A stretch of DNA of 48,778 nt from Thermaerobacter marianensis (GTDB lineage: Bacteria; Bacillota; Sulfobacillia; DVGY01): positions 1-48,778 of the forward strand of contig DYGY01000018.1 of the NCBI GenBank assembly GCA_020724425.1, given 5' to 3'. The notes under the pieces are model-generated. The model did no database searches and had not been told where the DNA came from. It was given only the letters and a program-made list of their open reading frames with translations. Each line of letters starts with the position of its first letter. Within the stretch, counting starts at the first letter, position 1. The position numbers were made by a program, and so were the translations under genes. Below, piece after piece: positions 616-33,474 of this stretch.

Positions 616-656
616 GTAAAAAAACCACTACCTCAGATACCGCAGAGGGAGTGGTT
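616..656 (-). terminator. Attenuator hairpin of the thiT TPP riboswitch
   Basis: The stem 645-656 with 623-634 (one mismatch) is followed on the minus strand by a run of seven U at 622-616. It lies between the TPP aptamer and the thiT start. The inferred logic is transcription termination when TPP is bound and read-through to thiT when TPP is low. Confidence 0.85.
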
Positions 657-664
657 ACACTCAC

Positions 665-750
665 CCGCTTCCCTACGCTGGAATTACCCAGATCAGGTTC
701 AAGGGTTAGTAGGTTCCCCTACTTCTCAGCCAGATGGCTCCCCTAGCGGC
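665..750 (-). promoter_or_regulatory. TPP riboswitch (thi-box aptamer)
   Basis: The minus strand carries the hallmark thi-box segments in order: GGCTGAGAAGTA, then ACCCTTGAACCTGAT, then CTGGGTAATTCCAGCGTAGGGAA. These are the conserved pyrimidine- and diphosphate-binding loops of the TPP aptamer. It is followed by an attenuator and then thiT. Confidence 0.96.
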
Positions 751-769
751 AGAATATTAGTCTACCTTT

Positions 770-5303: not shown

Positions 5304-7778
5304 TTAGCGAACTACAATATTTACTAACCTATCTGGGACAACAATCACCTTAACTATTTGCTTACCTTCAATATATGCTTTAACTCTCTCCTGATTTAAC
5401 ATAACCTCTTCTAACTCATCCTTAGAGAGATTAACAGGAACTTCAACCCTACCTCTTACCTTACCATTAATCTGAACAACCACTGTTGTCACATCAAGAA
5501 TCAAAGCTCTATCATCATAGTCAGGCCATTGAGCCAGATGAATGCTCTCAGTATAACCTAGTCTCTCCCACAACTCCTCGGTGATAAAAGGAGCAAAAGG
5601 TGCAAGAAGTAGCAACAGACTCTCAATACTTTCCCTGAGAACAGCCTTATCCTGAGCCTCAGCCGATACATTCTCACGATAGCCATAAAGAGCATTAACA
5701 AGCTCCATAATGGCACTAATGGCTGTATTAAAATTAAACCTATCACCAACATCCTCAGTAACCTTCTTGATGGCCCAGTGAGTCATCCTTCGGAGTTCCT
5801 GACTCTCTCTGCTTAGTTCACTAAACTTAATTTCCATATCTTTAATTACGGGCTCATAATGGCTAACAATACGCCAGACTCGTTGAACAAAGCGATAGGC
5901 TCCCTCAACACCCGCATCTGACCAGTCAAGATCTTTCTCTGGTGGAGAGGCAAAAAGGATAAAGATTCTAGTAGCATCTGCACCATATTTGGTCAGAATA
6001 TGGTCTGGACTCACAACATTACCCTTAGACTTTGACATTTTAGCGCCATCTTTGATGACCATGCCCTGAGTCAAAAGATTGGTGAATGGTTCAACAGCTC
6101 TTAAATATCCTGCATCATGCAAAACCTTGGTGATAAAGCGAGAATATAGTAAGTGCAAGACCGCATGTTCAATACCACCAATATATTGATCTACAGGTAA
6201 CCAGTAGTTAGCTATCTCAGGCCTAAACGGTGCAAGGGTACCTTTAGGATCAGTGTACCTCATGTAATACCATGAAGAACAAACAAAGGTATCCATTGTA
6301 TCTGTTTCCCTACGAGCTAAACCTCCACAACTAGGACAGGTAGTATGGATGAACTCTTCATGCTTGGCTAGAGGTGAACCACCTTCTTTAAATTCCACAT
6401 CCTTAGGTAGCATAACCGGTAGTTCCTCAGTAGGTACAGGAACAACACCACAGCTATCACAGTATACCATAGGAATAGGGGCACCCCAGTATCTCTGCCT
6501 ACTAATCAGCCAGTCTCTTAGACGATAGGTAACCATAAACCTACCTGTACCCTCTTTTTCTAAGAAGGAAACAACCTCTTTTTTGCCTTCTTCCGATGGT
6601 AGACCATCAAACTGACCAGAGCTTACCATAACTCCCGGTTCAACATAAGGTCCTGCTATCTCACTATCAGCTTTAATAACTTGGCGAATTGGTAGGTTAT
6701 ACTTCTTAGCAAATTCGTAATCTCGTTCATCATGAGCAGGTACACCCATTACTGCTCCAGTACCATACTCATATAGAACATAATTCCCTACCCAGATTGG
6801 AACCTCTTCACCGTTTACTGGATTCTTAGCAAACGAGCCAATAGAGAGGCCTTCTTTATCTGCTTCTGTTCTCTCAAGTTCACTCATTTCAGTAACGCGC
6901 TTAACAAACTCTTCTACCAATGGTTTCTGTTCTTCAGTAGTGAGTTTTTCAACTAAGGGATGTTCCGGAGCTAACACCATATAGGTAACGCCAAAGAGTG
7001 TATCAGGCCTGGTAGTAAAAACCTTGATCGTATCATTGGTTACCGGTACAGAAAATTCAACCTCGGCACCTTCACTTCTACCAATCCAGTTCTCCTGCAT
7101 TACGCGGACACGTTCTGGCCAACCTTCCAACAGCTTAAGATCATCTAATAGTCGATCTGCATACTTGGTAATCTTAAAGAACCATTGAGAAAGATTCTTC
7201 TTAACCACTGTACTAGAGCAACGCCAACAGGCACCATCTTCCACCTGTTCATTGGCCAAAACGGTTTGACAGGAAGGACACCAGTTAACACCAGCTTCCT
7301 TTTTCTCAACAAGACCTAACTTGTATAACTCTAAGAACAACCATTGAGTCCACTTATAATAGTCAGGATCACAGGTCTTAACCTCTCTATCCCAATCATA
7401 AGTTACACCTAATTCTTTTAGTTGTTCCTCCATACTAGCAATATTGGCATAGGTCCATTCTGATGGATGAACACCTCTATCTATAGCTGCGTTTTCCGCA
7501 GGTAAACCAAATGCATCAAAACCCATGGGGTGAAGGACATTGTATCCCTGCATATTCTTATACCTTGCTATCACATCACCAATGCTGTAGTTGCGAACAT
7601 GTCCCATATGCAGCTTTCCTGATGGGTATGGAAACATCTCAAGTACATAATACTTAGGTTTCTCAGTAGCATCAGTTACCTTATTGAGACCTCTTTCTTC
7701 CCAACTCTTTTTCCACTTCTTCTCAATAGTCGAAAAATCATAATTGAAAGCATTTACATAAGTCTTCTCGACTGCCAT
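5304..7778 (-). CDS. leuS: Leucyl-tRNA synthetase
   Basis: This 824-residue class I synthetase charges tRNA-Leu. Visible features are the HIGH-type motif in [13 protein letters not shown] (about 42-55), zinc-binding pairs CPSC...CWRC (about 165-190), the CP1 editing domain with [13 protein letters not shown], a second CDSC...CPSCGG cluster, the KMSKSKGN loop (about 572-579), and the C-terminal anticodon-binding and tRNA-contact domains ending in [12 protein letters not shown] use the ATG at 7778 (GGGGAGGA site); a TTG at 7793 overlaps that site and was rejected. Expression is controlled by its own promoter and a T-box leader that, unusually, contains a tRNA-Ala gene. The gene precedes comEA by about 57 nt. 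Confidence 0.97.
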
Positions 7779-7803
7779 TGTAATCCTCCCCAATGATTGA
7801 AAT

Positions 7804-7837
7804 ACAAAAAACCCTCATCCTCAAAGGGACGAGGGTT
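7804..7837 (-). terminator. Attenuator of the leuS T-box
   Basis: The stem AACCCUC(GUCC) pairs 7837-7827 with 7820-7810 and is followed by a U-run at 7809-7805. Its 5' strand overlaps the antiterminator strand that pairs with the T-box, so the two folds exclude each other. It ends 26 nt before the leuS ATG. Confidence 0.92.
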
Positions 7838-7879
7838 AGCTCGCGGTACCACCCTGATTGATAACTAGATATAAAGATG

Positions 7880-7952
7880 TGGAGCGGATGGGGATCGAAC
7901 CCACGACCTCATGAATGCCATTCATGCGCTCTCCCAACTGAGCTACCGCCCC
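7880..7952 (-). tRNA. tRNA-Ala(GGC), nested inside the leuS T-box leader
   Basis: This 73-nt cloverleaf is complete. The 7-bp acceptor stem contains G3-U70, the alanine identity pair, as the only wobble. The D arm is GCTC/GAGC, the anticodon arm CATGA-ATGGCAT-TCATG has anticodon GGC, and a 5-nt variable loop and T arm GTGGG-TTCGATC-CCCAT follow. The discriminator is A and CCA is not encoded (CAT follows), so RNase Z cleavage and CCA addition would be needed. It lies within the leuS leader, downstream of the leuS promoter and upstream of the attenuator, so it should be transcribed whether or not leuS is read through. All identity elements look intact, which argues for a functional gene rather than a relic. 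Confidence 0.95.
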
Positions 7953-8113
7953 ATTTTAGTTATCCTCTCTGATCCATAACGCTGGTTCTGCGTCTCCGAC
8001 TACTTATATTTCACCGAAGAAACTCACGGGCGAGTTCAAGGTAATTACCGATTCACACCCAACACCGGCTCTCTGAAGGCACCTCTAATACTCCCGTTCA
8101 TCGTCACTTTCAT

Positions 8114-8142
8114 ATTATATAAAGGTTCTCACTCAAAGTCAA
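8114..8142 (-). promoter_or_regulatory. Sigma-A promoter for the leuS leader and tRNA-Ala
   Basis: The minus strand reads TTGACT (8142-8137), a 17-nt spacer and a perfect TATAAT (8119-8114). It begins just after the rsfS stop, with a predicted start near 8107, so the leader covers the whole T-box. Confidence 0.88.
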
Positions 8143-8145
8143 GAA

Positions 8146-8484
8146 CTATTCCTGCTCTAGAGGAGCATCTCCCCAGAGCCTTTCAAGGTTGTAATATTCC
8201 CTTTCATCAACCTGAAATACATGTACAATAATATCTCCCATATCTACTAGAACCCAGCGCCCATCACTCTTACCCTCGACATGATCTACATATAATCCCT
8301 GTTCACTGCACTTTTCTAGAATATTATCAGAAATGGCCTGAACCTGTATCTTTGTATAGCCATGACAAATAACAAAGTAGTCAGTAAAACTAACCAGATT
8401 CTCCATGTTCAATATCCTTATGTCTTCTGCCTTTTTTTCTCTGGCTGCTTCAGCAATTATAGCTAACTTCTCTTTATTATTCAA
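8146..8484 (-). CDS. rsfS: Ribosomal silencing factor RsfS
   Basis: A 112-residue protein of the RsfS/YbeB/Iojap family, which binds L14 on the 50S subunit and blocks 30S joining when nutrients are short. Family signatures are SFTDYFVICHGYT (about 32-44), DHVEG (about 73-77) and GRWVLVDMGDIIVHVF (about 81-96). The start is a TTG at 8484 with AAGGAG about 10 nt upstream, spanning the end of the LCP gene. It is the last gene of the nadD-yqeK-LCP-rsfS run, an arrangement conserved in Firmicutes, and is followed directly by the leuS promoter. Confidence 0.94.
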   Translation of the reverse strand: MNNKEKLAIIAEAAREKKAEDIRILNMENLVSFTDYFVICHGYTKIQVQAISDNILEKCSEQGLYVDHVEGKSDGRWVLVDMGDIIVHVFQVDEREYYNLERLWGDAPLEQE

Positions 8485-33232: not shown

Positions 33233-33267
33233 TAAAAACCCCCTCACATCAAAGGACGGAGGGGGTT
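33233..33267 (-). terminator. Attenuator of the valS T-box
   Basis: The stem AACCCCCUC/GAGGGGGUU (33267-33259 with 33245-33237) is followed by a U-run at 33238-33234 on the minus strand. It competes with the antiterminator that includes the T-box at 33271-33285. Confidence 0.92.
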
Positions 33268-33474
33268 AATCCGCGGTACCACCTTAATTCCAGAGAGTTT
33301 ATCTCTGACTCTTAGATAACCCATAACGGAGGTTAGCCGGTCAGACCTACTATTTTCAGCCTAACACGCTCTGGAGCGACCTTCGATGATACTGTCTAGG
33401 AAACTTTTCAGCCATTGGGTCTCCCTCTCTAAAGACAGGCTTTCACCTACTCTTCTCCTTCATAGCGCTTATTA
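33233..33474 (-). promoter_or_regulatory. Valine T-box leader of valS
   Basis: On the minus strand the leader shows the AGTA element, AGAGAGGGAG and GGCTGAAAAG (Stem I), then GAAGGTCGC with GTC (Val) as the likely specifier. The CCGTTATGGG segment follows, then a compact Stem III (CAGAGA-TAAAC-TCTCTG), the T-box AAGGTGGTACCGCGG (33285-33271) and an attenuator. Its Stem III has an ordinary 5-nt loop, in contrast with the leuS leader. Confidence 0.93.

Follow-up and report, generated by a model that had tools for sequence, protein, structure and literature searches.

A tRNA-Ala(GGC) gene in the Stem III loop of the leucine T-box leader of leuS, recurring in at least five bacterial phyla

The stretch of DNA analysed, hereafter the window, comprises 48,778 nucleotides of a contig (DYGY01000018.1) of Thermaerobacter marianensis. 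On its minus strand, rsfS, coding for the ribosomal silencing factor, is followed by a T-box leader and by leuS, coding for leucyl-tRNA synthetase (Table 1). The leader matches the entire Rfam T-box model RF00230 (model positions 1 to 219) with 120.8 bits, compared to a gathering score of 93, and is preceded by the sole promoter-like site within positions 7750 to 8250. The leucine specifier CUC agrees with the regulated gene, and a tRNA-Leu(GAG) gene is present in the same genome. The T-box AGGGTGGTACCGCGAG was read directly from the sequence, and the UGGN bulge of the antiterminator was found as GGGTGGTACCGCG, together with the competing terminator. A first-pass annotation made from the sequence alone had described a leucine-type T-box with a GAA-CUC specifier, T-box, and attenuator upstream of leuS, and both the Rfam score and the sequence reading bear this out. 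A second T-box (33249 to 33472, minus strand; 126 bits), assigned to valS in that annotation, indeed has the ordinary Stem III hairpin ascribed to it. Elsewhere in the window, a TPP riboswitch (653 to 754, minus strand; 78.9 bits) lies just upstream of an open reading frame for a ThiT-like thiamine transporter (86 to 664) and near one for a thiamine pyrophosphokinase-like protein (802 to 1455).

Table 1. Features of the leuS leader region (window coordinates)
Feature	Position	Strand	Basis
rsfS (ribosomal silencing factor), upstream conserved neighbour	8146..8484	-	ORF; family named from sequence
Sigma-70-type promoter of the leader, TTGACT-17 nt-TATAAT	8114..8142	-	11/12 consensus positions; consensus match only
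Leucine T-box leader (Stem I, Stem II, Stem IIA/B, Stem III, antiterminator)	7822..8110	-	Rfam RF00230
Specifier codon CUC (Leu), after GAA in the Stem I specifier loop	8032..8034	-	Read from sequence
Stem III 5' strand GATAACTA, directly after purine motif GAGAG	7957..7964	-	Inverted repeat; covariation in relatives
tRNA-Ala(GGC) gene in the Stem III loop	7880..7952	-	ARAGORN and Rfam; G3:U70, no encoded CCA
Stem III 3' strand TAGTTATC, followed by conserved AA	7860..7867	-	Inverted repeat; predicted fold
T-box sequence AGGGTGGTACCGCGAGC with UGGU bulge of the antiterminator	7838..7854	-	Sequence and Rfam
Intrinsic terminator, 11-bp stem followed by a T run	7810..7837	-	Terminator region fold, z = -2.84
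leuS (leucyl-tRNA synthetase), regulated gene	5304..7778	-	ORF; tblastn and genome protein matches to homologues in relatives

Within this leader lies a complete tRNA gene. ARAGORN called a tRNA-Ala(GGC) at 7879 to 7952 on the minus strand, the Rfam tRNA model scored 64 bits at 7880 to 7952, and the Rfam T-box alignment accommodates the tRNA as a local insertion within the loop of Stem III; the canonical tRNA-Ala(GGC) that the first-pass annotation had placed here is thus confirmed by two programs. The G3:U70 pair is the identity element of tRNA-Ala, and the cloverleaf, the anticodon GGC, and G3:U70 in the acceptor stem are all present. The 3' end reads ...CTCC-A-CATC, so that CCA is not encoded. 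This gene is the sole Ala(GGC) gene among the 46 tRNA genes of the 92%-complete draft assembly; the genome carries its Ala(CGC) gene on a different contig, and no Ala(UGC) gene was seen among these 46 genes of the incomplete draft. The tRNA is enclosed by a perfect 8-bp inverted repeat, as had been noted from the sequence, formed by GATAACTA (7964 to 7957) and TAGTTATC (7867 to 7860), which is also present in the predicted minimum-energy fold.

A pattern consisting of a T arm followed within 18 to 48 nt by the T-box core was run over 84,980 species genomes and yielded at least 119 loci, with a tRNA-Ala(GGC) overlapping the T arm in about 85 of the matches listed. Altogether, at least 151 distinct leaders were collected in which the T-box carries a tRNA in Stem III, and the tRNA was Ala(GGC) in all 151. 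Nested leaders occur in at least five phyla (Bacillota, Chloroflexota, Armatimonadota, Coprothermobacterota, and Caldisericota), the carriers including Syntrophomonas, Thermosyntropha, Desulfofundulus, Pelotomaculum, Symbiobacterium, Sphaerobacter and other Thermomicrobia, and Anaerolineae. Pattern matches were obtained in 34 of 154 genomes of the window's class (about 30 true on reading the matched strings), 62 of 349 of its phylum (about 60 true), 26 of 301 Chloroflexota, the phylum of leader L040 (about 20 true), and 17 of 43 Armatimonadota, the phylum of leader L064 (about 12 true); these within-group counts are lower bounds, because leaders with deviating spacing or with the T-box variant ACCACG are missed. 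Patterns written backward, used as controls, matched no more than once per 300 genomes. The matches that involved other tRNAs (Ser, Gln, Gly, Pro, and Leu; L065, L072, L084, L108, and L336) proved to be tRNA genes followed by chance by GGTGGNACCGCG, with no T-box, and were discarded.

The nested leaders share the main features of the one in the window. Wherever the downstream DNA was long enough, leuS followed, and among the 144 leaders with sufficient upstream DNA the specifier was CTC in 127, CTG in 3, and CTT in 2. In five leaders (L122, L088, L076, L066, and L378) a T-box scoring above the RF00230 gathering score and a full tRNA occur together, and the same nesting is found in the closed genomes G022, G042, G167, and G419. 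Promoters of the same kind, again identified by consensus match, precede other nested leaders. G3:U70 is present in 126 of the 127 nested tRNAs checked; CCA is encoded in 96 of them and absent from the window and 30 others, among them closed genomes of family f23. In some leaders (L026, L048, L107, and L122) an acyl-CoA synthetase-like gene lies between the nested T-box and leuS, an arrangement seen in Pelotomaculum and Desulfofundulus, and in L043 this position is occupied by an ilvE-like aminotransferase gene; intervening operon genes of the latter kind fit control by leucine. In two armatimonadotal leaders (L064 and L405), Stem III is separated from the specifier part by an insert rich in repeats, GGTCGTAGGTCATAGGTCGTAG....

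The discriminator of T-boxes is defined by the arrangement 5'-RRRxG-Stem III-AA-3' (PMC7583486, PMC7778990), and the window's leader reads GAGAG-GATAACTA...TAGTTATC-AA in accordance with this motif. Free-energy folding of the whole leader of the window was no better than that of shuffled sequences (z = 0.24) and did not reproduce the Stem I fold; pairing statistics on relatives were therefore used instead. When applied to a gappy alignment of 43 leaders, RNAalifold recovered the cloverleaf with zero broken pairs but missed Stem III, because linker lengths vary, and Stem III was therefore counted at a fixed register and by partner swapping. For the 43 leaders, which had not been chosen for the helix, 75.8% of the cells were paired at the fixed register compared to 65.1% in shuffles, and 28 cells were changed on both sides compared to 13; the signal collapsed when the registers were slid. 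Swapping partners reduced the mean helix length from 5.7 to 2.6 bp, the highest value in 2000 trials being 3.3 bp. Each of the Stem III pairs 2 to 7 occurs as at least four pair types. In the larger set, 108 of 144 nested leaders have a helix of 5 or more base pairs that begins immediately downstream of RRRNG and ends immediately upstream of AA, whereas mismatched pairings reached this in 25 cases on average and in 34 at most (n = 200); by this strict rule about one quarter, including those of Coprothermobacterota and Caldisericota, have no clear 5-bp Stem III. Given the strong covariation and the position between RRRxG and AA, the enclosing helix is a true Stem III, with the tRNA in its loop. 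The first-pass annotation had placed the tRNA at this position and proposed covariation in related leuS leaders as a check; it had also considered that Stem III might form elsewhere, and no second Stem III was seen in the leaders read.

Several variations concern the surroundings of the tRNA. In L036 and L062, from Coprothermobacterota and Caldisericota, a tRNA is nested in a leader whose Stem I is very short and whose Stem III is nearly missing. In some Armatimonadota and Chloroflexota, additional hairpins measuring from tens of nucleotides to more than 100 nt lie beside the tRNA, and in L406 and L378 Stem III encloses both. Where no tRNA is present, as in the leuS T-boxes of many relatives, Stem III is plain and its loop part is a short hairpin, e.g., GGCA-TTC-TGCC in L343. 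The idea that Stem III was lengthened as a clamp around the tRNA was rejected, and no special clamp is evident, since the median length in nested leaders (7 bp) is not clearly above that in leuS T-boxes lacking the tRNA (6 bp; n = 15). The first-pass annotation had suggested that, once the tRNA is excised, the 8-bp helix could hold the two parts of the leader together, which thus remains a mere possibility.

The genomic distribution of Ala(GGC) genes bears on the role of the nested copy. With an anticodon-arm pattern, the nested genomes in which it matched, several of them closed, held only the nested Ala(GGC) gene, and genomes without a nested tRNA at leuS have an Ala(GGC) gene elsewhere; a few nested genomes are uninformative on copy number because the pattern misses even the nested gene there. 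From these sequence data, the nested tRNA is predicted to be the working Ala(GGC) copy of its genome. Three relics of the arrangement, preceded like the window's leader by the rsfS gene end LERLWGDA, point in the same direction. Stem I and the UGGN bulge are lost and the tRNA and a long Stem III retained in G034 (L355); Stem I is lost and the tRNA kept in G051 (L353); and in G059 (L411) the tRNA stands alone with a promoter after rsfS, leuS and its T-box being located on another contig. All three keep the tRNA and a nearby promoter, which is of the same consensus type as that of the window's leader. In G154 (L410), a tRNA-Ala(GGC) gene lies about 2 kb upstream of a leuS that has no T-box, with an NAD synthetase-like gene in between, and this is possibly another relic. 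Two Chloroflexota, G504 (L389) and G517 (L390), carry a tandem tRNA-Ala(CGC)-tRNA-Ala(GGC) upstream of a complete leuS T-box; G558 (L378) differs in having the GGC gene nested, with only the CGC gene lying outside.

The evolution of the nested state was followed on a tree of 110 LeuS proteins, calculated by a quick method under LG+G4, on which gain and loss were not told apart. The trait is scattered over the Bacillota and the Chloroflexota/Armatimonadota parts of the tree, with about 20 changes, at least 15 of them forced by well-supported branches, compared to 34.6 for shuffled labels. Since the isoacceptor, the loop, and the orientation are always the same, a history of few gains and many subsequent losses is more likely than one of 15 separate gains; lateral transfer of leaders may alternatively account for the scatter. 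G504 and G517 fall among nested relatives, for which reason their tRNA-outside state looks derived. It is conceivable, and we put it forward tentatively, that tRNA-Ala(GGC) biogenesis became linked to leucine sensing in an ancient composite RNA prior to the divergence of the leuS lineages of Bacillota, Chloroflexota, and Armatimonadota, the tRNA module aiding folding or turnover of the switch and the terminated leader serving as a source of an essential tRNA.

Taken together, the anatomy of the leader, its conservation, the covariation of the helix, the single detected Ala(GGC) gene, and the relics form the basis for reading it as a dual-purpose RNA, which is very probably correct: one promoter would give rise to both a tRNA-Ala(GGC) precursor and a leucine-specific, transcription-attenuating T-box of leuS. 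Transcription from the single promoter would thus serve two ends. Because the tRNA lies upstream of the terminator, every transcript, whether terminated or full-length, should contain the pre-tRNA-Ala, and the supply of tRNA-Ala(GGC) would be fed independently of leucine, whether or not leuS is transcribed. Through its CUC specifier and UGGU bulge, the T-box would read the charging of tRNA-Leu and decide on the entry of RNA polymerase into leuS; we infer that the switch still responds to tRNA-Leu. With Stem III closing around the folded tRNA, the insert would be tolerated and the purine flanks of the discriminator kept. General tRNA biology, together with the detection of only one gene copy, suggests that the tRNA would be excised by RNase P and an enzyme acting at the 3' end. 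Excision would probably follow the termination decision, the anatomy itself being compatible with either order.

The tRNA might in addition be coupled functionally to the switch, either by capping Stem III or because its excision by RNase P/RNase Z separates sensor from actuator and sets leuS mRNA stability, thereby coordinating tRNA-Ala output with leuS expression. The presence of one isoacceptor in one loop with very deep conservation argues for such coupling, as does the retention of Stem III around the tRNA even in relic G034, which has no T-box; moreover, the acceptor stem may stand in for Stem III in Coprothermobacterota and Caldisericota, since Stem III is very short there. However, an essential single-copy gene suffices to explain the retention, nested leaders do not have a clearly longer Stem III, and the plain Stem III of many relatives' leuS T-boxes indicates that switching does not need the tRNA. 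A regulatory role of the nested tRNA is thus possible but not required, and we regard coupling as rather unlikely.

A further reading, in which an encoded ACCA end pairs in cis with the UGGU bulge of its own leader as an internal antiterminator, draws on the complementarity of the two motifs and on the frequent encoding of CCA. As a general mechanism it was rejected, since many nested tRNAs, including that of the window and those in closed genomes of family f23, lack CCA; in addition, such an end is not free in the precursor, where it continues into the Stem III strand, and the retained leucine specifiers point to sensing in trans, making it highly improbable. That the window's composite is a chance insertion, a pseudo-tRNA, or an assembly artefact might be suspected from its origin in a draft assembly of 45 contigs, and the first-pass annotation had regarded relatives with the tRNA outside the leader as a sign of such an error. 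Yet the identical structure recurs in more than 150 leaders, in several phyla and in the four closed genomes, the backward control patterns hardly match at all, the cloverleaf is intact, the gene is the genome's single Ala(GGC) gene, and G504 and G517, with their outside tRNAs, belong inside the nested clade; this explanation is refuted by the recurrence and has a negligible probability.

The first-pass annotation had known of no tRNA gene nested in a T-box, and a search of the open-access literature likewise found no description. The passages found of a 2008 survey of 897 T-boxes do not mention tRNA nesting. The arrangement therefore seems to be undescribed. Both of its parts are of known kinds, and the new element is their nesting, its depth, and the fixed isoacceptor. 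A tRNA gene inside a tRNA-sensing RNA device is unexpected: the attenuated leader would become a tRNA precursor instead of waste, and the supply of a single-copy tRNA would be tied to the promoter of the synthetase gene for another amino acid. T-boxes have been noted to contain "curious insertions in every domain," of unknown structure and function (PMC7583486), and one class of these insertions is accounted for here. The spread over several phyla makes the arrangement a candidate for a very old one, and it offers a system for testing how the T-box decision, tRNA folding, and RNase P compete on nascent RNA. Annotation pipelines for T-boxes and tRNAs should allow for such overlap.

Compared with the transcriptional, leucine-specific leuS T-boxes of family RF00230, the nested leaders have the same domain order, leucine specifier, UGGU bulge, RRRxG-Stem III-AA discriminator, terminator, and downstream aminoacyl-tRNA synthetase gene, and they differ in that the Stem III loop is a whole, predicted-functional tRNA gene for another amino acid. 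The arrangement in G504 and G517 combines the same isoacceptor, T-box, and leuS, with the tRNAs outside and upstream of the complete T-box. Dicistronic tRNA-mRNA transcripts, in which a tRNA is cut from the leader of a protein gene, are known from the tufB and metY-nusA operons of E. coli. Cotranscription of a tRNA upstream of a protein gene is shared with these operons, but there the tRNA is an independent cistron, whereas here it lies inside a regulatory RNA whose halves must pair across it. RNase P also cleaves B12 riboswitch leaders, at a tRNA-like fold; the enzyme would act on leader RNA in both cases, and in the nested T-box a real tRNA would be released.
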